NCBI GenBank assembly: GCA_964036295.1
Contig: OZ038468.1
Span: 10,860,183 to 10,924,182 of the forward strand
Length of the DNA: 64,000 nt
Direction: 5' to 3'
Source of the DNA: Plumapathes pennacea
Lineage: Eukaryota > Cnidaria > Anthozoa > Antipatharia > Myriopathidae
Shown: positions 3,688 to 64,000 of the stretch, one piece after another
Layout: every line of letters begins with the position of its first letter
Position numbering within the stretch: the first letter of the stretch is position 1
Position numbers and translations under genes: made by a program
The notes under the pieces: model-generated
Databases searched by the model: none
What the model was told of the DNA's origin: nothing
What the model saw: only the letters and a program-made list of their open reading frames with translations

Positions 3688-3982
3688 TACGGTGAAACCT
3701 GGATATAATGATGGCCAAAAGACTGGGAAAATTTGTTTGTCATAACAAGGTTCCACTTCCATACATTTTACTGCAACTGGGCTGTAACAGGCCAAAGAAT
3801 ATTGTATACAGTGAAACCTGGATATAACGATGGCCAAAAGACTGGGAAAATTTGTTTGTCATAACAAGGTTCCGCTTCCATACATTTTACCATAACTGGG
3901 CTGTAACAGGCCAAAGAATATTGTTTGTTATGTTGTATTTAGGTTTTCGTTACACAGAGATTCGTTATAAGGTTTCACTGTA
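3688..3982. mobile_element. mariner-type MITE, partly duplicated
   Basis: A full element runs from tacagtgaaacctgg (3807) to aggtttcactgta (3982), with inverted ends bounded by TA as in Tc1/mariner elements. The segment 3688-3806 is a direct partial duplication of its left part. The counterpart at 55,048-55,237 has only one copy. Confidence 0.7.
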
Positions 3983-13600: not shown

Positions 13601-16600
13601 CAGGTCGCGACTGACTTGTATTCTGAATTCAACACCACATTGGCCGACCAATGTCCACACCCGCGCTGTACAGTCAGCTGTAATCAACTCAGGGGCGGAT
13701 GCACCCTTTTTCGTGACCAGTGCGAGCGCCGAGAAATTGTGAATTTGCGATTTTCCGCTCGAATGAATTTTACATTTTTTACATGCCGTTTTCCAAAACG
13801 TGAGCGGAGATCGAAATAGCTTATTTAGCTTTGCGACATTCTTTCCATATTCCATCCCAAAACAGACACAAGGCAAACAGAACGCGCCATCCAAGTACTT
13901 GGAATAAACCAGTCAAGAGTGACGAACGAGCCAGTCTGGTTTAAATCGTTTAAGTCGGCCGCCGCTTTCTTTCGTCAAAGGGAACTCGAAGAGCGTACTG
14001 GCTTCCAGATATTTTGAATAAATCGGAACTTTTCCGCGTCAGAAAATCTAGCGATTTCTTGATACACTATTCCGATATCGAAAGCTGAACAATCGTCTTT
14101 ACGACAAACAGGATTTCCTCGAGCATGTGACGCCATCGCACGGGTATTTATAAAGGCTGACCAGTTCACGACCGGTGCACAAGAATCACGAGGGCCAATA
14201 GGAGGCGATCATGACCAGTGCACAAATTGGCTAACCAATCATAGCGAGTCTTGATGGGTGCACTTATTTGACCTTTGCACTCATTGACGTCTATTTGCGG
14301 AAAGACCGATTTTTCCCTTGCGATGTTTCACGACACGAATCGAATGTCGCAGGGTTGATTTAAACGGTACAATTCATTTCGTCACTGCGTTGCAAGTAGG
14401 ATAAACAACAGTCGCGTCTGTGTAAGGATGTACTGAAGAACAGTTTTCAACTTCATAAATTGCGAGTATGCTAATATTAGAAAGATTTGACTGGTTTATT
14501 GGAACTGGTGGCACTGGTCTGGATCCACCCCTGTCAACATAGTTTGATATACTGGATTCCTTGACGAAACAGAAAAGAATCATTCTTATCATTCGATATT
14601 GAAAGATGGTTTAAACCCAAGAGCGAGATTAGTTGAGGTTGGTTGTCCCGGTGTTTAGGTTGACCAAAGATAAACCTCAGGACAGATAGGGAACGGTATA
14701 CAGAATACCTTGTACTGACTGCGAAGCATCGGTGAAATTAGAAGGAACCTGAACACGGGACTTACTAAACACAAACGAGCTACCAGAAACGGCGACATCA
14801 TAAATCACATTTTTGAACACCACTGAACACGACATTAACCCCAGGGACTCTGCTGAATGGGCTGATGCATGGTATAAGAAGTCACCTCCTACGTCACACA
14901 AGAGAACACCAGATACATGAAATAAAACAAAACAACAACAACCTAAGAATATCTGTAGATCGTTGGATCAGTAGATCTTTGGATCGATGGATCTGTAGAT
15001 CGATGGATCGTTGGATCTGTAGATCGTTGGATCGATGGATCTGCAGATCGTTGGATCGATGGATCTGTAGATCGTTGGATCGTTGGATCTGTAGATCGTT
15101 GGATCGATGGATCTGCAGATCTTTGGATCGATGGATCTGTAGATCTTTGGATCGATGGATCTTTAGATCTTTGGATCGATGGATCTGTAGACCGTTGGAT
15201 CGATGGATCGATGGATCAGTAGATCTTTGGATCGATGGATCTTTGGATCGATGGATCTGTAGATCTTTGGATCGATGGATCTGTAGATCTTTGGATCGAT
15301 GGATCTGTAGATCGTTGGATCGATGGATCTTTACTAAAAAGGACTTTACCCCTCCCCCGATGGTGCAAATGTAACAGCGCGGCTACCAAGGCAAAACAAA
15401 GATTGCGGGTAATCGCATCGTGCAACGTTCATGTGGTCATATGTGACTGTCAAAAACCCTGTGTCAAAAACCCTTTAGATCGTTGGATCGCAAAAGGCCT
15501 GTGAACGAGACGAACATGGCTGCCGCACGTGTTCTCCCGTGGTTCGTTTCTTGTCTGCTTCTCTCGCGTGCTGCCAGCGTTAGCCAAGAGAAATTTTCTG
15601 AGGTGCAAAAATCTCATGTTAAGAGTGCTATCCTCTTTTTTGAAGAGTCACTTTCCCGTGGAATAAGGTTCTCTCTGACGTTTAGGCCTTTTACTTCGGG
15701 ACCAAGTTCCGATGTTGTTCCCTTGTCGTCGCATTATCTATTGCCAGATGTTATCGTTTGGGACCCTCTTCGACAGTTTTGTGACCATACGTTTTACTGC
15801 CCTGAGTGCAGCCCAGTTCTCGCAGCATTGCATGGAACTCGCTGGAAGGATGGAAGAAAGCCTTGGGACATGCCTCGACAACTGTGGGGCACAACTGGAC
15901 ATGTTTTGCTTGTGAGTCGGGTTTACATTTGTACCGCCGGCCATCAGACCATCGCCCATGATCCTGCAATTCTAAGTCAAATTGGGTATACCTTCCTTAT
16001 TCCTTTTGTGCTATTTCATCGATCAGGATTGACAAGAGACAGTTTCAGTTTAATCACAGCCCATTTTAAGGCAGGGCTGAGTTTGGCACAGATAGAGAAT
16101 TTACTTTGCCAAATGCACTACACCACATATGTGACAGCTAAATTAAAGCATGTTCATGGGGCACATTAAAGTCTACCAACAGAAGCATGGCATCGAGGGT
16201 CATGTCGGTTTAGAAACATTTCCAAGCCGAGATTGCAAGGACTTTGCACCTGGTAGGACTCTTTTGTCATCATGTTTTATTCTCAACCATTTGGAAAGGA
16301 AGTGGATGTTTGACAAAAGAATGGCTTCCATGACGGCTAACAAGTGGTTGTCTGCTGATCATACCTTTAAAGTGGCGGCTAACATTGGGTTTTGGTGGAA
16401 TAAGAAATGGGTACGGATGTTTGACTCTCTTTTTATTGTCCTCAACGAAAATGGAGTTGCTCTTGCTTGGATGTTAACAACTGGAACAGCATTTTCCAAT
16501 GTTTCTGAACTTTTGAAAAAACTAAAGTCGAGAATTGACACCCAAGGGTCAAGGCCCAGCTGTTTTTATGTGGACAATTGCTGTTCATGGAAGACAAAGT

Positions 16601-19600
16601 TGATAAATGTTTTTGGACCTCTCCTAACTGTGAAGTTAGATATTTTTCATGCCATCCAACGAGTCGTCAAAAAAATACCCAAGAAAAATAAGCCTGCAGG
16701 CATCAGGGGAATTCGAAAACAAATGATCCTTGAACTAAGGATGATCATTCGGGATCCGAGGGATAAAGCAGAAGAACGGCAAATGGAAACTCCTTCACCA
16801 GAAATATTGCAGTGCAATGTTGACTCCTTTTTGAGGTGCTGGAACAACACATGGTTTGAGGGAGAGAAAGTATTGCCACCACTTGCAGTATTAGAGCTGG
16901 ACAAACTCAAGGTCCACATGAAAAAAGGATGCCTTTCTTTCATTCCAAAATCTGCTGGTACCTCAAGAAATGAACAGCTCCACCAAAAGCTAAAGAAAGC
17001 TGTAGGTCGTAGTCGTTTGGGTCTGCCATATTGCCTGGCATTGCTGGATGAGTTTTTTTATGGTCATAACGAACGAAAGTTAGCAACACTCAGTGGAACT
17101 AAAACTCCTGTACCCCCAGTTGAACATTATTATCATGATGATACTAAACGTAATTCGTATGTGTGTGATTCTTCAAATGACCAACCTACTGAGCACTTTG
17201 GCCTTCCCTTCCATCAACATCACACCAGCAATGTAGCACCCACAGCCCTGTCTTCCCTGGCATCATTCCCAGAAGAACCCACTAACTTGTTGGAACTCAA
17301 TAGAAAGCTTGAGGAAATGCATGGTGCAGAGAGTTTGGGTCCAAGTTCAGATGAATCCGATGAAGAAAATTTGGACTGTGTCGACTCAGATGGTTTGCAA
17401 GATGATACTGCCCACAGTAATACTGTATTCACAAGAGAGGAAACTCTTCTAATCTTACAGAAAGCAACAAACCTGCTACACATCCAGAAAGAGCTTAAAG
17501 GGCTTTGTGGCACCACTGTTTTCTCTTCTGCCCAGTTGCAGCTTGCCCATTCTTGGTTACTTTTTCTACAGCAAAGCTCTGAAGATACAGTCCAACAACA
17601 GTCATGCCTTGATAGTGTACTGGAAGCACATTCAATGAAAAAAGTCCCCATGTCAAAGAATGGCAACTGCTTTTTCTTATCTGTTGCATTTGGAATCAAG
17701 CAATTATTGTCAAATGAGATGTACACTAGTGAATTAATGTCTAAACTGATGCCAGTGCAGGACTGCAGTCCTGTGTTATTTAACTATCAGAACTGCTCAG
17801 TTGATGATTTGGCAGCACTACTCCGAAAGGCACTGGTTAATGAGTTTCTCACCAAGCCCAATGAATATACTCCCTTCCTGCAGAAAGATGAGAAAGACTA
17901 TAATCATCTGTCCAGGGCATTTTTGTGTGGTCATTTTTCCTCTGAATTGGGAAATGCAATGCCTAAAGCTATGGCCAACATCCTGGGGATGCCTCTTGTC
18001 ATTTTTACAGATATCGAAGGCCTACCTGTTATTCCCATAATCCCTACAACGGCACAATACTCTGCAGAATCCTTACTTTATCTGGCATTCACTGGTGAAG
18101 GACCAGGACACTATGATGGAGCAGTGCTATCTACTAAGGCCACCACCGACCATAACGCAAGTGAAGAAACAGACAGCACTATCTTGCCAAATTCAACCAA
18201 GGCTACTTCCTGTAGTTGTGGAAGAGGTGCTGCCAAAAATAAAAGTGAAAAGAACTTCTGTGTATCATATAGTTCTGGTTGCAAGTGCTTTCAAGGTATG
18301 TCTGGATGTGGGGAGCAGTGCAGGTGCTATAACTGCAAAAACCAATATGGACAAAGATCAAGTGCAAAAGAAAGCAGTAATCTGGTCAAGCCACAGAGGA
18401 AACGAAGGCGGCATCATACTTCCTCTGCTGATTTGAAAGGAATGAACATGTTGACAAAATTGTGCCCTGCAGTCAGTCCAACTGTCACTTCCAGTTATGA
18501 AAATATCGTATTGGAATGTATCATTCACTCTCTTTCATCAGTTATGGATGAACTTGATGCTAGCCAGATAACAGCAGAGTACCATCAGTGTATTGACATC
18601 CTCCATGGAACAAGTAATGAACACCTTCTCAGTAGAAAAAATGTAAAGGAAGTTAAAAGGAAACTGTTGCAATGGAATCATCAAAATACTACTTTTCAAT
18701 CACTACTTTTAACAAAATCTGGGTTCAGTTAAAATCTCAAACACTTGCCCTGATCTGTGTTTAGAAGCCAAAATGGCGCAATTCAAAATAAGCATAGAAA
18801 TATTAGAAATATCAAATTGATGTTACAGTTTTTGAGACACACATTTGTACCGGTGAAAGCACAAGGCCGACATGACGTTTATTATCACAGGGAATGCGAC
18901 AAGAGCGCAGCAGTGTGTTTCAATCATTTTTATTTATCACTTCTATTTCAGTTGCTATAATTCTTGCAAATGTTTCGACAATAAATACTGTACTGTCATA
19001 TTGTTGACCCTTGATAGTATTATCAAAATGGCAAACTGACAAGAATAAATAATGAATATATATTAATAAATAATTAATAATGTTATTAAGCAAATTATGG
19101 TTTTGATGAAAACAGTTTTTCCCTTCAAACTTTAACAACCTAAGTACTGATATTATATATGGGACTATCTGTCATTGGAATATAACATTTTAACTACAGC
19201 ATATACTCAGGGTTAATCATAAAATAAGATATATACCCCGCTTACTCATGCAATATTTTTCCAGAATGTAACATTGCATGACCTTTTTTTGTAACAGTAA
19301 CAACAAATACACTACATGGTGTGACATAACATACCATGATACAAGTCTATAATAAACTGATTGCATCTTCTCCACCACTGATTCCAAATGAGGATGAGAA
19401 AAAGTATTACAAAACATTCTTAAGTGATAAAATCATTGCCTGAGCATAAACTGTTGATATAATGCGTCCTCACATAACCTGGAGTATTGTAAGTTATACA
19501 AATAGTGCCTATGAATATAACCACAACAAAATAACCCACCCCCCCCCCCCCCCTCCCCAACCCCCCAAAAAAGGAATATGAAGCCATGGGCGAAAATGAC

Positions 19601-22600
19601 AAAGTAGAGAAAAACCTATTGCTGAGAACTAAATCAAGTTTAAAGTAGATCTTTTCCCTCTGCTCTGAAGTAATCCCGAAGTTCAGCTCCTAATGGGTGG
19701 ACCTCCAGCATTCTTTCACGATGAGACGAAGGCAGCAGATCATCTTCTTCTAAAAATAACTCCTTGTATCTCTCAATTGAAATACCGAAGGCTCCCAGTT
19801 GGTGGTCAGACTCGGCAAGGGTTGAGGGCAGAGACTTGAAGAAGTAAGAAGACCTTTGCACCTTCTTGTGAGTGCCAAGGGACAAGTCAGCCAGCTGCAA
19901 CATACACTTTTCCGTAACTTTAGGGCTGGGCCGGGAACTTGAGGAGTAGCTGTTGTAAACTCTCTTGCCAGTACAATATGGTCCAGGCATGGTGAGGATC
20001 CTATTTTTTATATCATCTTCAGACACTGTCATTCTCACAGTGGAAGTGCCCTGTTTTATTGTCAGACACTGCAAATACAGTTAAAATGATCACCCGTTTT
20101 GAAGAGATACAAACGACGACTGAAGAAAAAGCAGCTTTCGATCGGAGAATAAAAACAAATACCCCCAAAAAAAACAGCGAAAATACCGAAAAACCAGAGA
20201 GAGAGAGATGGGGGGGGGGGGGGGGGGTGGCAAATACATTGGGGGGGTAAACTAGTGGTTGCAATCGAAACCAACTTAAACAAGTTACAAACAGACAAAA
20301 TTTAATAGCAATGAAAGGAAGAACCTACCGCTTCTGCCACCCCACCAAATGTAAGGAGAGTATCATGAAGAGCCAGGGCCATGTTCATGGTAGTTTCGCT
20401 GATCACGTTGGGTGTTGGCCCGGTTGACTGCTCTAGGGCCTTGCCAAGTCTGTGCCATAGGATATGGATGTTGAGGGATAACCGAAGAGCGTTTTTGGTG
20501 CTTTTCGCGTTGCATTCGGGCTGAAAGGCACCGGCCACACCTTGAGACGACTGGACAACACTTCTTGCTTTGCAATACTTTAGAAATGTTTCTTTGGCGC
20601 TAGGGCTCAGACAATATTCTATTGGATTGTCTAGATGGTGGTCTAGAAACATTTGTTCGTACATCGAACCAAGGCCTCTTACGTGACTGGCACTGACCGC
20701 TGTCGCGTACTCGTCCACCTGCTCCAACTCGATAACTTGCCGCTCTTGGTAGAGGATTAGCATACGGTCGGCCAGGCCGTTCCTGCACCCCACGATCTTT
20801 GGCCAAATCTCGCCCAAGAATCTACGCGGCGTCGTATAGGTTGTCATGCTCATGCGTGCACTTTGAACACCAACACGTTTCCCTTGAGTGCCTTTGACGG
20901 TGTACCAGTAGTCGCCGTCGTACAACTTGCACAGTCTCTCCATGGTTAAGCTTGTTTGCGAAGCAGCTTTACTGGTACTGGTCAACTTGTGGAGGAAGGA
21001 ATACCCTTCGTCAATGCATAGAATGGGCACGTGTCCCTTTTTAGCCGTGTGGTGGCACACAAAATGATTAAACAGACCGGTAGAAGAAGTTTCATCCACG
21101 AGAATACTTCGGTCAGTGCGTGGCTCCAGGTGAGAAATCAAGGGCTGCACGCACCCGATGCTGCACGCGGGGGTCTTTCCAGCTCCCGATGGAGCAAGGC
21201 CGACGATAAAAAGATTCCCTTCCTCCTTCCAAGATTCGAAAAGTTTCACAGTAGTGTTCCCGATAAGGGCACCCGTACACGGCAGCATACTGGCAAGCAA
21301 CAAATCCCGTGAAGTGCCGTGGCTTTTGGCGTAAACATCGAGCCATTCCCGGATTTCTGGAGGGGCGATATCCTCCCATGGCAGCTTGATTTCAGAGAGC
21401 TTCTTCTCCAGATCTTCGATGGATTTGATGTCAGCTTCCAAGTGATCCATGGCGAAATTTCAACTAAATTAGCAAACTGGTAGCCTTGATGCACTGAGAA
21501 TTGCGATACTTCTGTAGCGTCCGCGTGCCGGATATGTATCATATAGGTGACATTTTCTGCAATGACGTAACTCATTTCCAGGTTTTCTCCACATATACCA
21601 CAGGTTGCCCAAGCGATGGGGTCTGGGGCGAGTATTTGATGTTTTTGGAGTGGGAATGTTTAGACACGAATACTAAAATAATACTAAAATAGAACGAACG
21701 AAACTTTGCTGATGTGTTTATCTGCTCTTCGACTGTCTGTGTTAGCAATTTCATCCGGATTCGGTAATTTTTGGCTCCGCGACATCGATCAAAAGATCAA
21801 CAGATCCAACAATCTACAGATCCATCGCTCCAACGATCTACAGATCCATCGATCCATCGATCCAACGATCTGCAGATCCAACGATCTACAGATCCATCGA
21901 TCCAACGATCCAACGATCTACAGATCCAACGATCCAACGATCTACAGATCCATCGATCCAACGATCTGCTGATCCATCGATCCATCGATCCAACGATCTA
22001 CAGATCCATCGATCCAACGATCTGCAGATCCATCGATCCAACGATCTACAGATCCATCGATCCAAAGATCTGCAGATCCATCGATCCAACGATCTACAGA
22101 TCCAACGATCCATCGATCTACAGATCCATCGATCCAAAGATCTACTGATCCAACGATCTACAGATATTCTTAGGTTGTTGTTTTGTTTTATTTCATGTAT
22201 CTGGTGTTCTCTTGTGTGACGTAGGAGGTGACTTCTTATACCATGCATCAGCCGCTGAATGCATCAGCCACAGCACTAGAACTACTATTAACGACTTACA
22301 CAGGAAAGCTGGTACACAAACTTAGAACGGAAACCTCTTAACAGATGCCAACACATTACCTGCACTTTACAAACGATTGACAGATGACATCAAACGCAAC
22401 CGAACGAAAAATAAACAAATCGAGTGGACAGCAAAACAACAACCGACCGATAACAGAACACAACCGAGTCACAACCAACAGAGACATAAATACCGCCATC
22501 TGACGAAATCTCTTTACCTGACTCTAAAGATGACTTCCGCTCTGCGAGTCGAAACGTCAGTCACCAACAACAGTCTTCCTGGAGACTATTCTAACCCGGA

Positions 22601-28600: not shown

Positions 28601-31600
28601 AAGGCATTATATATAGACCGCAGTGTTGCTGAAGGAACGAAGGGTCTGCAACGCTTTAGCGCTCCGATACCGGAGGCGATTTTCTTAGATAATGATTAAT
28701 GTGGGCATTCCAAGATAGATTTTCATCAATAAAAACTCCAACAGATTTAGAAATATCTACTTGTTCTATGTGAGCATTATCGATTACTAAAGATGGAGAT
28801 CTACTGTACGTACTTAACCTTTGACGCGATCCAATGAGCATGAATTCGGTTTTAGATGTATTCAAAGTGAGCCTATTTGCAATAAGCCAGTCATTAATCT
28901 TCGCGAGATCTAGATTCATATCATGCTCAATGTCATCAATATTGTTACTGGCAAGAGTTAAATGCGTATCGTCTGCATACATTCTAGACTGAGAGTACGA
29001 CAAGCAATTAGGCAGATCATTTATATATAAAATAAAAAGCAAGGGGCCAAGGATTGTTCCTTGGGGAATGCCACACCTTAATTGTCGATTGTCGGAAAGA
29101 GAACCATTTACAAGACACTTTTGATTTCTACTATCCAGATATGATTTAAACCATACCAACGAGGCACCGCTAACACCGTATTCTTTCAATTTAGATAAAA
29201 GAATAGGGTGATCGACAGTGTCGAACGCTTTTTTTAGGTCTAAGAATACAACCGCGTTTACTTCACCTCGATCAATGTTGTAAGCCCAGCTGTCGGTGGC
29301 TTCAAGTAATGTGGTAGCGGTGGAATGGAGTGATCTGAATCCCGACTGTTGATTAGTGATTAAATTATTAATAGTAAGGTAGTTGTACAGTTGATCATAA
29401 ACTATTCTTTCGAAGACTTTTGCGACAGTCGGAATAATAGAAATCGGGCGATAGTTATTCAAGTCGGAGCGCTCCCTTTTTTTGAATAAAGGGATAACCT
29501 TTGAACACTTCCACTCGTCAGGAAAGATACCCAAAGCAATGGATCAATTAAAAATCAGACAGAGGGAGCTTGCAATTAAGTCGGCGCATTCGCGAAGAAG
29601 CCTTGCTGAAATCTTATCGAGACCAGTTGCTTTTGATTTGCATAGTTTCGATATAAGACAAAAGACTTTTGAAGTATTTGTTGGTTTCAGATCGAAAGTA
29701 TTATTATTGGTCCCGATAATATATTCTAAGTTTGCTAAATGCTTTTCCTTCTTGATTATATGCACTCTTCGGACTGGTTGAAATATCGCTTTTTATTCAT
29801 TTTATCGACCTAGCGACAGCTCAGAAAAATACAGATATGTTTCTTTTCATTTTGTAGCTTTTTAAGGTGTGCTTTTGCTAAATCATGTTGTACAAAGATG
29901 CAAACCCTAAAAGAACCACATTGTACGTTGTTTGTCTCAAAACAAATTTTCAGAAAACAATATTTTACTACAGTAACACTGTGCCCCCGTGTCCAGCTTG
30001 CTTCGTGTTTCTTTGTCGGCCAACTTTTAAACTTACAACACCTTTCTGTTATTCGTGTATAGTTCATTCAGATATATCACAGAAGTCAAAAGCTTTTCTT
30101 TCCAGATACTTAAATCGCTAAATAAAGTTTAAAAAATAAATTAAAATTATAAAACTACACAGCACGTACTTCTTTTGTCCGAAGCAACCCAACAGAAATG
30201 GTCCTTGGACGGCCTTTTATCGCAACTTATCAGAACAGTGTGGAATATCATTACTATATTGAAACTCCGGGCAAAACATCGAGATGACTAGCTGTGAAAC
30301 TTTCAGAACTTATCAGACCATTGTGGGTGGAAGCGCCACAAAACAAAAGTCAGAACAGAACAGAAGTCACTGAACCATTCATTACCAGAAAAACGTGGTG
30401 GAAATCTACACGAAAAAGTGAAAAATGCGCATGCGCACCTAAGATAGGTTTCTAAAATGCTCGTTTCTGGGCACCAGTACTAAAGTACAGTACAGAGCTC
30501 TCAAACTTGCTCGTTTTTGGGCACCAGTAAGCTGACCAGTTGGTCTAGGCCTGGTTGGGTCTTCATAACTCGAACAAGGGGTCAATGACAGTGTGGTATG
30601 CGGCTGTCCTTGATGACGACTACGTCGCCCAGGTTCAGGTTTCTCTTCGGAAATTTCCCTATGTTGAATCGCTGGAGCTCGGTAAGGTACTCTTTGGACC
30701 AGCGACCCAAAAAGTATTGGAACAACATTTGGCAGAGTTGTCAGCGCTTTAGTAAGTGTATGGACTTGGTTGGGGCATTGGAATGGTCAGGAAGTGCTTC
30801 TAAAGGCCGCCAAAAGCAAGTGCCCAGGGGTGAGGGGCGTGATGCCGTCGACCGCAGCAGTTACTGGTCTCTTGCAGACCTTTCAAGAAGCACGTCTGCA
30901 GTCGACGCACTGTCGGATCCACTTGCACACAACTCTTCGAGCACCCATTATGTGATACCGCTCTTGGAGTGAACTGAGGACGAGTTTGGGTCCAGCATGA
31001 TTTAGTCGTTGGTGCTCATGCTGTAAAATCAGAGTGACGATCCGATGGTCGCCAACAAGGATCAGGGGATGACGAAACTGGTAGCCTTCATGGGACTCGG
31101 AGAGCCTTCCCCCCACTCTTAGTCGGTCGTCAGTCCAAGAATGGGTTTAGAGACAGCAAACGGCTGCTTCTGGGGATTGATTTTCCGCGCTGGAGTGCTG
31201 TTACTACTTCAAGGAACATTTCAGCTTGTAGTCGTTTGAACTACCAAGTTTCTGTTTTGGTTAGTTCCTGTACTGATATTGGCGTCGCGCTGAATAGATG
31301 AGATTTGGTGATGACTCGAAAGACGAGAGCTGTGGTTCGTTTTAAGCAAGTGAAACTTGAAAACCTGTCAATGTTAATCGCGGGGCTAGCGCTTGTGGTT
31401 ACTTGCAGCGCAATCTCATTTGTCTGCTTCAGCCCTACAGTTTCTTTCGGTATACCAAGTGACGACAAGGTTTCCAGACAAGGAGGTGCAGTGAGCTTGG
31501 TTGGCCACTCGGATGGACTGTCGATGAGCCATCAGAGACCTGACTACCAAAGATGGTGGTTTAGAATTTCCTCTGGGGGGATGCCGCGTGATCCACAGTC

Positions 31601-54103: not shown

Positions 54104-55600
54104 CACCTTGGTCACTGCATCCATTAAACAGACCTCTTCTTTCTGCCATTCACATGCATAATCTGCATTTTTACAAGAACTATGGAACTGGTAATGAACA
54201 TTGTCCAAAAACTCCTGCTGTCACATTCCTGACTTCCTAAAAGAATTGAAAAGTATCAAACCCAGCACAGCCATATAATTACTTTTATGTGGCCAACAAA
54301 TATAAATTCTGGACATTTTAAATTCTTACCAAGGAAACTTTGATAAATTGGGAAACATTAATATTACACAATCAGTGGTAATTAATTCTTTCACTCCCAA
54401 AATGCAGATTCTCCCAACTTTTTGACAAGAAAATGTTTGAATGAAGGAGTGAGAATTGATAACTAGATTAATCAGTATTAGGCCAAGTTCTCTATACTCC
54501 TACAATGTACTGCATCTCAACTGGTGAACAACTGAAGGAGAAAATAGAAGTTGACCTTGGGAGTAAAAGTGAAGATAATACCAGAAAAAAAATTAAGAGG
54601 CTGCTAGCTGTCATATCTAGAATATTCACCAGACCACCTTCAAACAATTTTCTTAATTTTCAGTGGAGCAACAACTGAATGTGTAAGCAGTACAGTGGAA
54701 CTTCGCCTTACGACCACCTCGTTAATACGACCAGTATTTTTTTGCTCTGTTGGTGGTCGTATTAATGAGGTTCCACACTATACCTGAAGGTGTGTATCAA
54801 GTCTGACAAAGCATTGCTGTGATTTTCTAATGTAATTTTCAAATTGAATAACTTAGAAAGAAATGGAAAACAATGAATTAATGATTTACTCAAGAAGCAA
54901 ATGAATAGCAGTTTCCATCATTGAGTGAAAAAACCTTCAGATCACTTGTACCAATGGCAACCTCATTCCCAGGCTCTTTCCTCTCCCTTCAGGAGCAGGG
55001 AGCCGGGAGAGAAAAGAGCCTGGGAATAAGGTCATAACAATAGTAGATACAGTGAAACCTCATACGATGGCCAAAGGACTGGGAAAATGTGTTTGCCATA
55101 ATGAGGTTTCATTATAGCAAGGTTCTGCTTCCATACATTTCACTGTTACTGGGCTCTAGATAACGGGCTGAAGAATGTGGTTTGTAATATCGAGGTTTTC
55201 GTTACACAGAAGTTCGTTATATTGAGGTTTCACTGTACATCAAAGCATTTTATTTCTAACCTGATTCAATACAGCCCAAACACAAAAAGATCTGAAGAAA
55301 TAACATTATAATGAAGATTCCTGGGCATTTGACACCAAACTGTGGGAAGTTTGGGACTAGATTGCACACGTGCATCATCAAGAATTGTATTCACAAAATA
55401 CAATCACTTCCACATCTAATTTACAGAAAATTGATCGAGGCCCAGAGAACGGTCACTTGCCCTTCCATTTGCCATAAGTGTGGGGGCCATTTGAATGGCT
55501 TTTTGGGCCCAAGGGTAGAGAATTTGACTGCCAAAACTCAAAAGTTCAAATGCCCGGGGGCGGGGTTGTGTGATACAGACAAATTGACCAGCACATATAT
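54104..55600. repeat. Repeat P, copy 2, right part
   Basis: Resumes homology to copy 1 at gcaccttggt (copy 1 about 2830) and runs to about 4590 of copy 1. It includes the palindromic MITE (54,692-54,781), the hairpin (54,969-55,023) and the mariner-type MITE (55,048-55,237). Ends at a family T terminus at about 55,625. Confidence 0.85.
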
Positions 55601-59046: not shown

Positions 59047-59171
59047 TGGCGACCCTGCCAGGACTACTTTTGGAGCGATTACTTATACTTTCTTTCACGG
59101 AGTAAAAGGTACGTGCAGCGAGTGGTGAATGTTTACTTGTGCGAATTCAAAGAACGGAAGCCTTGAAAAAC

Positions 59172-62100
59172 ATGGCTTATACGGAGGAGAAGTTCAACAA
59201 ACAAATTGCAATAGCGGATCTTAAACTTGAGGAAATACAGGAACTATCGACTAGTGAAGATACAGAGGAGGTGTCAATCGCGTACGAACAGATTGGAGAG
59301 TTGATCAAGCGTTTGGAAAAATGTAAGGACGAGACAGCTGAATATCTGCTCGAATCAGACAAGGATTTGGAGTACATTAAAAAGTGGACGGCAGATCAAA
59401 AGGGAAAAATACAACCCTTTCGTGGGGTACGTCTTGAAATCAAGAAACGACTGGAAGAACTTGCGGTAAAAGAAGCACAAGTGACACTTGATAAACAACT
59501 GCATATTCAACAGAAGATCAACGAGGAGCAGACCAAGTACAGGTTACAACAACAAAAGGAAATCGAGGAGGCCACTATACGACAACAACAGCGGGAAGAG
59601 GAGTGGTACATGAGAAAGCTTGACTTCGAGAAACAAATAGGGGAGAGCCAAGCCGAACGTATCGGAAAGGAAAACACAGAGAAACCCACGAAATCCACAG
59701 CGCAATCCGTAAAGCTACAGAAGTACACCATCACTCCCTTCACTGGTGACTACAAAGACTGGTTACGGTTCTGGAACCAATTTACGGTAGAAGTGGATGG
59801 CTCGTCAATCGCGGAAATTAGTAAGTTTAATTACTTGCTAGAGCTGGTGAAAGGGAAACCCAAGGAGGACATCTTAGGACTCCCGCACACTGAGGAAGGA
59901 TACAAAGAGGCTAAACGAATTCTCGTTGAGACCTATGGGAAGGACGTCAAAGTACACAAAGCCCTGATAAAAGAATTGGAAGAACTTCCCGCCATCACCA
60001 GCATTCACAAGCTGCGCAACGTACACGAGTTCTACAACAAGCTGGCCAGGGTAGTGCGCACTCTTACTACGATGAAGAGATTGACCACTGCCCAGAGCAT
60101 GATCTACACACTGATGGACAAACTGGGTCCTGTTCGAGAAGTGATCGTGCAGAAGGATGACGCCTGGGAAGAATGGGGTCTGGAGCAACTCGTCGAGAAC
60201 CTTCGAAAGTATGTGGAAAGAAATCCGCTGAGAACCAGTGATGATGATGGAAAGAGAGATAACGCCCCGGGACATCATCTAGGGAGAAAAGAAAAATTGC
60301 TTCTAGGAAACTCAGAAGAGCCGAAGCTGGGGAAGCAGAACCGCAAATTTACTTGTGTGTACTGTAACTCGGATGAACATTTCAGCCCCAACTGCACGAG
60401 GGTGCTTGACCTTGCCGCAAGACGAGCGACACTGCAGAGAAACAAGAGGTGCTATAATTGTACAGCAATTGGACATAGGGCATCTCAATGCAGATCGAGG
60501 GGATGCAAAAACTGCCAAGGAAAGCATCACACCTCTATTTGTGACAAGGAGAAATCAACTGTCGACATACTTCAAAATTCTAAAGTGGAGAAGGGTTTGA
60601 GTTCACTTCTGAAGCAGACAAGCACATTGCATCCAACAGTGCTCGCCAAAGTGGGAACGGAGACATTTCGGGTGATGTTTGACTCGGGTGCCGGAAGTTC
60701 TTACGTGTGTGCTGACGTCATAACCAAACTTCACCTGAAACCTGCGAGAAAAGAGCAACGTTGCATCGAGCAAATGTTCGGGACCATAAGGAGGAACATC
60801 GAGGTGTACGACATCAACATACAGTCTCTTGCGATCGACGGTTTCCAGTTCAATGTCGAGTGCCTCAATGCTGGAAAGGATGTACTCACTTACCTGCCTA
60901 ACCCGAACATTCGCGCGTTAAAGGAACAGCATGGCCGATTCAGACGACTAATCTTTAGTGAGGAAGAAACAAGAAGCGATTCAATGCCAGTTCACATCAT
61001 TCTTGGAGCAGCTGACTACCAAAGAGTACGGACGACAGAGCCTCAAGTCTTAGGAACCATCCCAGATAAAGACCCAGGCGCCGAATTCACGATGCTCGGT
61101 TGGACGATTTACGGCCGACAGCCCACAACAGAAAATTGCACGGAGAAGCAGTTCTTTCTGAGGTCTGGCCAGGAAGAGTTTGAGAAGTTGTGCTCACTGG
61201 ACGTTCTCGGACTTGCGGACGCGGGTACAGGAAGAGACGCGGTGATGCATGAAGATTTCCTACAACAGCTAAACCAGACCGAAAGCGGGTACTACGAAAC
61301 GAAATTGCCGTGGAAAAAGGACCACGTTCCGCTCCCAATCAACAAGAACCTGGCTACCGCCCGACTTTACAGTACGACGAAAAAGCTGGAGAAGATTGGG
61401 AGATTACACGAGTATGACCAGATAATGCGGGAGCAGATGAGTGATGGAATTATCGAGCAAATACTCACCCATCCAACGGGGGAGGTTGTGCACTATGTGC
61501 CCCATCAAGCCGTTATTCGAGAAGATGCGGAGACAACGAAGATGAGGATTGTGTATGACTGTTCCTCGAGAGCCAACCCCCAAACCCCCTCCCTCAACGA
61601 CTGTTTAGAGACAGGACCACCACTGCAGCCACTCCTGTTCGATATCCTTCTACGGAATCGAATGCGAAAGTTCTGCGTCACTGGAGACGTTCAGAAGGCG
61701 TTCCTGCAAATCCGAGTGCACGACCAAGACAGAGATGCACAACGAGTCCTGTGGTACGACAACCTCAGAGATCGAAACGTCACTGAGTACAGATTCACAC
61801 GAGTGATATTTGGGGCTACATCGAGTCCATATATCCTTGGCGCAACACTTCAGAAGCACGTCAGGAACTACGAGGCGGAGTACAAAGCGACAACGCAGTC
61901 ACTGTTGGAGGACACGTATGTCGATGACATCCAAGGGGGAGGAGATACGGAAGAAGAAGAAGCAGCGATCTTCAAAGAAGAGTCTACCAAAATTCTGTCA
62001 GAGGGCGGTTTTTCTCTTCACAAGTGGCACAGCAACGTAGGGCAGCTAACGGTGAGCGAGGGAAACCGTGAAGGGGAAGAGACTTACGCCAAGAGCTTGG

Positions 62101-64000
62101 TTGGGAACAGACAAAACAGCAACATCAAAATCCTTGGAACTCAGTGGAACAAAAAGGAAGACACACTTACTATCAACCTCGAGTCATGCTTGAAGACGGC
62201 CAAGCCATTGACAAAACGGAAGATGATTTCTACTATCAACAGCATTTATGATGTACTTGGGTTGAGCGCTCCAGTCACCATCACTGCGAAGTTAATCTTC
62301 AGTGAAGTTTGTCTCCTAAAACTACACTGGGACGACGAGATTCCAAGTGATGTTCAACGGAAATGGGAAGCGTGGGTAAACAGCTTGCGGCGAGCTTCAA
62401 CCATTACCGTCCCGCGCTGCGTGTTTACAGCCCACCGAACGCACTTTGAGATCCATGGATTTTCAGACGCCAGCAAGATTGCTGTTTGTGCTTCACTGTA
62501 TGTCGTGGCATACCAGGACGCGACGCCAGTCGACCAGAACCTACTGGTAGCTAAAGCAAGAGTCGCGCCTAAAGAGATGAGCATTCCACGACTGGAACTG
62601 ATCGGAGCACACACCTTGGCGAAACTACAAAGTAACGTGAGCAAGGCGTTAACGTCCTTCCCAATCACAGCCTACCACAACTGGGTGGACAGCATCACTG
62701 TGCTGTGCTGGTTGGCAAATCGTGGGGAGTGGTCAACCTTCGTGCGCAATCGAGTCAAGAAGATCGGCGAGCTGACAGATGCGGCGTGGAGACATGTTCC
62801 TACAACAGAAAACCCAAGCGACCTTGGAACCCGAGGGTCAGTGCCAGACAAGCTCAAATCAATGTGGTTGAAGGGGCCCATCTGGCTTTCGGATGCGTCG
62901 AACAGGCCAGAGCAACCAGCGATTTTAGAGACGGGTGAAGCCAAGTCAGAAAGGCGTCAGAAAGAAGCAATGCTGCTGACGGAAGACGCGGCACAAGAAA
63001 CCTTAAAGAGCTGGGCAGGGGATCTCTTGGACAAGTTCACGTTTTGGAGGCTTCTGCGCATAACTTCGTACGTCAAACGCTTCATAGATTGCTGCAGAAA
63101 GACAGATGAACCAATCAACAACAAGGCGAGACAAAACGTGCCACTCAGCAAAACCGAGATCACGGAGGCAGAGAATGTCTGGATTCGGATCACTCAAAGA
63201 ACAAGTGACATGACTTCAGGCCTAAAACTTGCGACAGATGAAGACGGGTTAATGAGGTGCTACGAAAGAATTCAAGGCTACACTCCTGTTTTCATTCCGA
63301 GGGAATCTGCGTTAGCGAGACGCATCGCTGAACATTGCCGTCTACACACTCTACACGGGGGAGTTGCTGCAACAATGAGCAAAGTTCGACAGAAGTACTG
63401 GATCCCTAAGCTGAGATCGCTGGTAAAGAGCATACGGTATACCTGCAACTACTGTAAGAAGTACCGAGCAAAAGTTCTTAGTGCCCCAACCACTTCAGCC
63501 TTACCAACCTTCAGAACAGAATTTACAGAGCCGTTTCACGCCACTGGGGTGGACTTTGCTGGACCGCTTCTGTGCAAATCTGGGAAGCACGAAACAAGCA
63601 AGGCATACATTGCACTGTTTACATGTGCCAGCACGAGGGCAGTACACCTCAAACTTTGCAGCAACTTGACAGCAGGCGAGTTCAAACGAGGTCTTAAAGA
63701 GTTTATTGCCCGAAGAGGCTCACCGAACCTAATGGTGAGTGACAACGCTAAGACTTTCCAAGCAACGAAACAGTGGTTGTCGACACTGCGGAAAGATGAT
63801 GATCTCTTCAACTACCTGGCAACGAAGGACATTGAGTGGAGATTCAACTTGTCACGCGCTCCATGGTGGGGCGGATTCTTCGAGAGACTGATTGGCATCA
63901 TGAAGAACTGTCTGTCCAAAGCAATTGGACGAGCGCTGTTGAAATTTGAGGAACTTGAAGACGTTCTACTAGACGTGGAGTCCTTCATGAACAACCGACC
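59172..64000 (+). CDS. BEL/Pao gag-pol polyprotein, open to window end
   Basis: At least 1,609 codons from ATG at 59,172 with no stop. Residues 1-170 are a Glu/Lys/Gln-rich coiled coil. The capsid region begins at KLQKYTITPFTGDYKDW. Three zinc knuckles lie at about 394-450 (CVYCNSDEHFSPNC, CYNCTAIGHRASQC, CKNCQGKHH). The aspartic protease is at about 500 (VMFDSGAGSSYV). RT shows TGDVQKAFLQI (about 835) and TYVDDI (about 914). RNase H spans GFSDASK (about 1,095) to NPSDLGTRG. Integrase has HTLHGGV and CNYCKKY, then GVDFAGP, VSDNAKTF and GGFFERLIG. All key residues seen are intact. The last integrase part and the 3' LTR lie beyond the edge. Confidence 0.9.
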   Translation, partial: MAYTEEKFNKQIAIADLKLEEIQELSTSEDTEEVSIAYEQIGELIKRLEKCKDETAEYLLESDKDLEYIKKWTADQKGKIQPFRGVRLEIKKRLEELAVKEAQVTLDKQLHIQQKINEEQTKYRLQQQKEIEEATIRQQQREEEWYMRKLDFEKQIGESQAERIGKENTEKPTKSTAQSVKLQKYTITPFTGDYKDWLRFWNQFTVEVDGSSIAEISKFNYLLELVKGKPKEDILGLPHTEEGYKEAKRILVETYGKDVKVHKALIKELEELPAITSIHKLRNVHEFYNKLARVVRTLTTMKRLTTAQSMIYTLMDKLGPVREVIVQKDDAWEEWGLEQLVENLRKYVERNPLRTSDDDGKRDNAPGHHLGRKEKLLLGNSEEPKLGKQNRKFTCVYCNSDEHFSPNCTRVLDLAARRATLQRNKRCYNCTAIGHRASQCRSRGCKNCQGKHHTSICDKEKSTVDILQNSKVEKGLSSLLKQTSTLHPTVLAKVGTETFRVMFDSGAGSSYVCADVITKLHLKPARKEQRCIEQMFGTIRRNIEVYDINIQSLAIDGFQFNVECLNAGKDVLTYLPNPNIRALKEQHGRFRRLIFSEEETRSDSMPVHIILGAADYQRVRTTEPQVLGTIPDKDPGAEFTMLGWTIYGRQPTTENCTEKQFFLRSGQEEFEKLCSLDVLGLADAGTGRDAVMHEDFLQQLNQTESGYYETKLPWKKDHVPLPINKNLATARLYSTTKKLEKIGRLHEYDQIMREQMSDGIIEQILTHPTGEVVHYVPHQAVIREDAETTKMRIVYDCSSRANPQTPSLNDCLETGPPLQPLLFDILLRNRMRKFCVTGDVQKAFLQIRVHDQDRDAQRVLWYDNLRDRNVTEYRFTRVIFGATSSPYILGATLQKHVRNYEAEYKATTQSLLEDTYVDDIQGGGDTEEEEAAIFKEESTKILSEGGFSLHKWHSNVGQLTVSEGNREGEETYAKSLVGNRQNSNIKILGTQWNKKEDTLTINLESCLKTAKPLTKRKMISTINSIYDVLGLSAPVTITAKLIFSEVCLLKLHWDDEIPSDVQRKWEAWVNSLRRASTITVPRCVFTAHRTHFEIHGFSDASKIAVCASLYVVAYQDATPVDQNLLVAKARVAPKEMSIPRLELIGAHTLAKLQSNVSKALTSFPITAYHNWVDSITVLCWLANRGEWSTFVRNRVKKIGELTDAAWRHVPTTENPSDLGTRGSVPDKLKSMWLKGPIWLSDASNRPEQPAILETGEAKSERRQKEAMLLTEDAAQETLKSWAGDLLDKFTFWRLLRITSYVKRFIDCCRKTDEPINNKARQNVPLSKTEITEAENVWIRITQRTSDMTSGLKLATDEDGLMRCYERIQGYTPVFIPRESALARRIAEHCRLHTLHGGVAATMSKVRQKYWIPKLRSLVKSIRYTCNYCKKYRAKVLSAPTTSALPTFRTEFTEPFHATGVDFAGPLLCKSGKHETSKAYIALFTCASTRAVHLKLCSNLTAGEFKRGLKEFIARRGSPNLMVSDNAKTFQATKQWLSTLRKDDDLFNYLATKDIEWRFNLSRAPWWGGFFERLIGIMKNCLSKAIGRALLKFEELEDVLLDVESFMNNR

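Follow-up and report, generated by a model that had tools for sequence, protein, structure and literature searches.

A Mutator/IS256-type transposon of Plumapathes pennacea carrying an MCM-like DUF3987 ATPase, with subterminal arrays that covary with the ATPase among related elements

The window analysed here, 64,000 nt of Plumapathes pennacea (assembly GCA_964036295.1, contig OZ038468.1, positions 10,860,183–10,924,182 of the forward strand), contains at 14860–22253 what is almost certainly a real two-gene element. It is a DNA transposon of the IS256/Mutator type (C/DxxH signature, 8-bp target-site duplication, TSD), in which a DDE-OTU-CXC transposase is accompanied by a DUF3987 ATPase that is AAA+ and, judged from its predicted structure, more precisely MCM-like. 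Among related elements, the terminal tips followed the transposase and the subterminal arrays followed the ATPase. The best overall explanation, which we regard as probable, is an IS256/Mutator-type element with an MCM-like motor, which we propose to be loaded at these arrays.

Tips beginning with GGCTGATGCATGG were read in the window at both limits of the element. The inverted arms, about 470 bp long, align over 474 columns with 90% identity. Their outer terminal inverted repeats (TIRs; 91 and 88 nt) disagree solely by a 3-nt length difference. Inward of each tip lies an array of 8-bp GATC-rich units, ca. 380 bp long, the two arrays being inverted relative to each other. The transposase and DUF3987 gene bodies converge between the arms, and an identical 8-bp TSD lies on both sides (Table 1). 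The duplication, the long matching ends and the convergent genes claimed in the first-pass annotation were thus recovered; its term “complete” holds for the structure, but not for the transposase gene, because the latter is split into two overlapping frames.

The relationship between ends and genes was assessed by searches of the 290-Mb assembly (24 contigs; L numbers denote loci and P numbers protein relatives). Between the window element and L038, the tips show no relationship (an equal or better score in 43 of 300 shuffles) and the transposases are 31% identical, whereas the ATPases are 73% identical and the arrays resemble each other (local score 114 against 16.5 in column-permuted controls, standard deviation (SD) 15.1; reached by 0 of 200). 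The reverse was found between L038 and a complete element of 7,614 bp on C8 (6410761–6418374; L053, L054, L055; exact TSD ATTCTTTC): the tips agree at 39 of 41 positions and the transposases at 89% of the DNA, whereas the ATPases are 46% identical (146/318) and gene orientation differs. The C8 ATPase, 85% identical to P0103, belongs to a clade other than that of the window element and L038, and the C8 array is made of GGTTCTCT units. Genome-wide, this pattern gave 27 overlapping matches, 26 of them within the C8 element or a derivative of it, 1.4 kb long (C8:9434813–9436176) and bounded by the same tips. L042 combines a third transposase lineage (33%–35%) with a clade-A ATPase (62%–65%) and a GATC-type array. 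These crosswise identities therefore indicate that tips follow the transposase and arrays the ATPase. At the sequence level, array and ATPase covaried in two comparisons, a hint that the motor may work on the end arrays. L041 (ATPase 81% identical to that of L038, transposase pieces 33%) and a locus on C6 (ATPase 90% identical in DNA to that of L038; transposase 58% identical to that of the window and 28% to that of L038; genes 6 kb apart) also look reassorted on their genes. At a second clade-B ATPase locus (C8:6563753, L056), no array was found within the 301 bases read.

The description of the second gene as a DUF3987-like ATPase was upheld by Pfam (PF13148, E 3.3e-20; 73 bits against a cut-off of 27) and, as regards AAA+, by fold. 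The predicted model (predicted local distance difference test 79, predicted template modelling score 0.85) has an MCM-type AAA+ core over residues 30–375, the best 50 matches listed being MCM; IstB, TnsC and MuB were not among these 50, which excludes nothing. An N-terminal oligonucleotide-binding (OB)/zinc tier is a feature of MCM helicases, and the element's ATPase lacks one, its AAA+ match starting at residue 30. The family goes with phage DNA helicase/primase families, and members of the DUF3987 group known elsewhere belong to the replication modules of mobile elements in prokaryotes. The association of DUF3987 with primases, mentioned in the first-pass annotation, is in print: the available text of PMC5862659 describes fusions to archaeo-eukaryotic primases and cites a paper whose title calls an SCCmec helicase MCM-like. 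With a motor of this kind, a role as helicase or remodeller is no less plausible than one as a Tn7/Mu-type partner, and we consider a true translocase or helicase fairly probable. Between the window and L038, exon 1 gave a nonsynonymous rate (dN) of 0.155, a synonymous rate (dS) of 1.40 and a ratio (w) of 0.11, whereas the transposase is far more divergent (two stretches gave dN 0.61 and 0.88, with dS saturated or close to it). These rates indicate purifying selection on ATPase exon 1 over a long divergence, and the ATPase is very probably a selected, functional partner.

The two genes are persistently linked, and their pairing is kept in diverged relatives, although the arrangement varies: the genes converge in the window family, L042 and C8 but lie in tandem in L038 and L039. 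As lower-bound counts, transposase sequence was present near 11 of 14 ATPase loci and ATPase sequence near 10 of 13 transposase loci. ATPase loci were pooled from DNA searches, each counted once; the first search scored 40 of 45 candidates, and 30 of its 41 rows, which matched query bases 1–70 only (a short dispersed repeat), were dropped. The 5′ flank of the ATPase gene at 21591–21660 matches a short dispersed repeat (30 genome matches of ca. 40–75 bases). The 11 linked loci include C6, where a single element was not shown, the C7 derivative described below (N-terminal transposase piece only), C11:10221552 (116-base piece) and L041 (fragments), and the 14 include C8:7690168 and C8:6563753, whose surroundings lay outside the examination. 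For the transposase loci C8:9435490, C3:6456026 and C7:16908873 (a 50-base match), the ATPase searches listed no ATPase, their surroundings being unread. The source contigs of transposase relative P0027 and ATPase relative P0170 are both 240,111 long, a hint of linkage elsewhere. The eight homologs listed with an organism name all come from a coral or a sea anemone (Acropora, Stylophora, Exaiptasia, Nematostella, two from Desmophyllum, Montipora and Pocillopora). A viral source was rejected, as no relative emerged from scans of viral contigs, whether the two proteins or the two alignments served as query.

The uninterrupted target of the window element occurs 27 times in the genome at 1–3 mismatches, against 0 for a reversed-pattern control, and the element is therefore a real insertion. 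The CATCAGCC after the right TSD, considered as an excision footprint, is part of the target repeat. The first 27 nt of the tip matched 14 genome sites at ≤ 3 mismatches (reversed control, 0), and four copies including the window element are near identical in tips and interior. The copy at C3:10452345 (L034/L035; 99% transposase DNA identity) lacks ca. 15 nt at its right end and carries a 6.8-kb insertion in the N-terminal region of its transposase gene, and that at C11:10257727–10264422 has the OTU part deleted and the ATPase in two frames. A 3.4-kb derivative at C7:12565293–12568654 has an exact TSD, GAGGTTTC, and an open ATPase exon 1, without exon 2 and with the N-terminal piece only of the transposase. 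Its target repeat occurs uninterrupted 77 times at 1–2 mismatches (reversed control, 0); window positions 3688–3826 and 55213–55237 are also copies of this abundant dispersed repeat. Constant absence of one gene between these TIRs, raised in the first-pass annotation as a sign against a two-gene unit, is not the case: three of the four near-identical copies carry both genes (some damaged), the fourth being the C7 deletion derivative. As to TSD length, also raised there, an 8-bp duplication is exact in the window, C7 and C8 elements and agrees at 7 of 8 positions in C11; in C3 the right tip is cut. Seven single-tip loci of the window family (L045–L051) had no convincing partner tip within 9.9 kb.

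In the transposase, D275, D368, H371 and E480 are invariant and D347 is conserved in at least 90% of 37 sequences, all being present in the window. The predicted fold is IS256-like, and an OTU fold with catalytic Cys and His is recognisable. The DDE-OTU-CXC reading thus stood as far as the modules are evident through relatives, but Pfam detected neither OTU nor CXC in the window copy itself. An intron between the two frames was rejected, because the C3 copy crosses the junction in a single frame and the copies differ there by a few bases; the C11 copy is likewise split. Eleven of 89 relatives passed a motif filter selecting for a long N-terminus. Each of the 11 contains, within its first 60 residues, a hydrophobic stretch (mean over 15 residues 1.75–2.83), which is the protein-wide maximum in eight. 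The window stretch (15516–15600) has a mean of 1.77, not above the rest of that frame. Signal-peptide-like N-termini were seen on P0001, P0002, P0007, P0027 and L052, and a hydrophobic one on the L042 relative; neither L038 nor L039 shows an evident one. It is odd for a transposase to start with what resembles a signal or membrane sequence.

Several observations weigh against a motor that reads the arrays. The evidence for a clear swap comes from a single complete element (C8), and one swap does not amount to a census. Moreover, the C8 and L038 arrays score 34 against each other (controls 11.2, SD 4.6; reached by 0 of 200), and as this is low yet above the controls, their units are probably distantly akin. 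L041 has both genes, and no array was found within 9.9 kb. Because the ATPase gene adjoins one array, physical linkage and conversion between the inverted arms could produce covariation without recognition. An ATPase fragment at C12:8247660 has no transposase within 9.9 kb, and the 1.4-kb C8 derivative has tips and a transposase piece with no ATPase listed in the ATPase searches. The ATPase profile matched 0 chains among PDB sequences at E ≤ 1, i.e., no sequence-level MCM homology. Finally, dN/dS between near-identical copies is 0.61–0.77, on few changes, and the ATPase exon of L038 carries one stop.

We propose that the transposase most likely recognises the tips and performs the cutting and joining, to judge from its fold and conserved residues, and that the MCM-like motor would be loaded at the subterminal 8-bp arrays. 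Powered by ATP, it would translocate along the DNA there or remodel it, which may aid the assembly or resolution of the transposition complex or the restoration of DNA at the ends. We infer that the ATPase cooperates with the transposase, and likewise array binding, helicase activity and a need for it in transposition; that it acts at the arrays falls somewhat short of an even chance. The fuller proposal is tentative: recognition would be split, the transposase reading the tips and an MCM-like ring helicase, derived from a replication module of prokaryotic type, the arrays, which would serve as a ring-specific helicase-loading site, with the ATPase-plus-array module swapped as one unit between transposase lineages.

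An AAA+ protein with a gene of its own that moves together with a DDE transposase would also fit a regulator like those of Tn7, Mu and IS21, which picks or prepares the target and recruits the transposase with no DNA unwinding. The two insertions in dispersed repeats lend this weak support, because empty sites are demonstrable in repeats only. However, the ATPase gene family groups with replicative helicases, the listed fold matches are MCM (the absence of adaptors among them excluding nothing), and the covariation with the arrays implicates the ends of the element itself, not a target; we regard such a regulator as unlikely. The iteron-like arrays, the primase fusions and the SCCmec title agree instead with a replicative helper, in which the MCM-like protein would power the replication of the gapped element, or of a form that is excised or circular, as proposed for SCCmec helicases. 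This is improbable too, as no primase or polymerase was found among the searched open reading frames (ORFs) of the element, near-identical copies are few (four), and 8-bp TSDs reflect ordinary integration. It is more doubtful still that the ATPase is cargo serving the host or itself, linked by chance and arm-mediated recombination: gene orientation varies, and ATPase genes that are damaged or partial are also mobile (exon 1 only, with an exact TSD, in the C7 derivative), as also expected for any element mobilised in trans, but several lineages have an ATPase in this slot, which has also been refilled from another clade, and ATPase conservation is strong over long divergence. If the MCM-like motor is indeed needed, this would be eukaryotic transposition with an ATP-driven step like that of Mu and Tn7, on a replication-type motor. 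The crosswise covariation offers a direct test of the function of long repeated ends in Mutator/foldback-type elements, and it suggests that a helicase module has been exchanged between transposon lineages.

Elsewhere in the window, a 1631-aa open frame at 59106–63998 with a Pao-type peptidase, RVT_1 and an integrase zinc domain is a BEL/Pao-like retrotransposon reaching the window edge, and a reverse transcriptase fragment lies on the minus strand at 28659–29543 (RVT_1, E 1.1e-34). Features of the two-gene element are collected in Table 1; we take the ATPase motifs to have the roles under which they are listed.

Table 1. Features of the two-gene element in window coordinates
Feature	Position	Strand	Remarks
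Left TSD	14852..14859	.	GCTGAATG; empty-site repeat
Left tip, outer TIR	14860..14950	+	91 nt
Left subterminal array	14951..15330	+	8-bp GATC-rich units, 24-bp period, 15.8 copies
Transposase, N-terminal frame	15516..16166	+	Cys/His-containing domain; weakly hydrophobic start; matches P0001, P0007, P0013
Transposase, main frame	16150..18732	+	DDE core, OTU protease fold, CXC cysteine cluster
DDE residues	D 16357-16359, D 16573-16575, DxxH 16639-16650, E 16972-16974	+	
OTU Cys; OTU His	17668-17670; 18109-18111	+	
CXC Cys	18211-18336	+	
DUF3987 exon 2	19640..20068	-	142 aa and stop; homologous tails in P0096, P0118
DUF3987 intron, predicted	20069..20328	-	GT...AG, 260 nt; by eye; protein continuity with P0096/P0118
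DUF3987 exon 1	20329..21450	-	374 codons, no stop; predicted MCM-like AAA+ ATPase
Candidate arginine finger	20761-20778	-	
TTP strand	20818-20838	-	
Lysine-rich hairpin	20869-20898	-	
Walker B	21007-21030	-	
Walker A	21169-21195	-	
Right subterminal array	about 21783..22165	-	8-bp units, inverted relative to left array
Right tip, outer TIR	22166..22253	-	88 nt
Right TSD	22254..22261	.	GCTGAATG

As to family, model and signature point to IS256/Mutator. The DDE triad has a C/DxxH between the second D and the E, a signature of the Mutator/IS256 group in the available text of PMC10045372, and the 8-bp TSD and long TIRs fall within the range given for Mutator-type elements in the accessible part of PMC6446971 (TSD 8–11 bp, TIRs often long). 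A profile search with 37 transposase members found no Mutator-like element (MULE) family among 18 families at E ≤ 0.1; Transposase_mut appeared in one member (0.084) and DDE_Tnp_ISL3 in three. Zisupton/KDZ, the candidate of the first-pass annotation, appears less likely and was set aside for want of profile support: no KDZ family appeared at E ≤ 0.1 in these members, and DUF6729 in one (0.045). The 8-bp TSD agrees with Zisupton, yet is not specific to it according to the part available of PMC12730594.

Among known systems, Ginger1 comprises DDE transposons from hydra and further animals, in some of which an OTU domain lies at the C-terminus (PMC2836005, as far as available), but their 4-bp CCGG/CCGT TSD and TGTNR ends differ from the 8-bp TSD and GGCTGATG ends (GG) of the present element, and Ginger1 was rejected. 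MuDR-6_HM, a cnidarian group 14 MULE, is likewise Mutator-type with an ovarian-tumour domain, but in the accessible listing of PMC6446971, the only basis of comparison, it has one ORF and no TIR, the TSD not being indicated. The sequence link to the ISCth4 transposase is marginal: of two relatives scanned, one matched the IS256 model NF033543 (E 0.012). ISCth4 is presumably a member of the IS256 family, and we know of no OTU, CXC or ATPase gene in it. The ATPase shares an AAA+ core with MCM helicases, but is too short for their N-terminal tier. It shares Pfam DUF3987 and the phage helicase/primase families with prokaryotic DUF3987/DUF927 mobile-element proteins, but is carried here by a eukaryotic DDE transposon in which no primase was found. 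The literature searched, with most subscription journals and Repbase outside its coverage, yielded no AAA+ partner for a eukaryotic cut-and-paste element, and to our knowledge such partners of DDE transposases are a prokaryotic theme. Tn7, Mu and IS21 have AAA+ partners beside their DDE transposases, and the present element resembles them in its separate AAA+ gene; it differs in being eukaryotic and in the MCM-like type of its ATPase, for which target choice is a candidate role.

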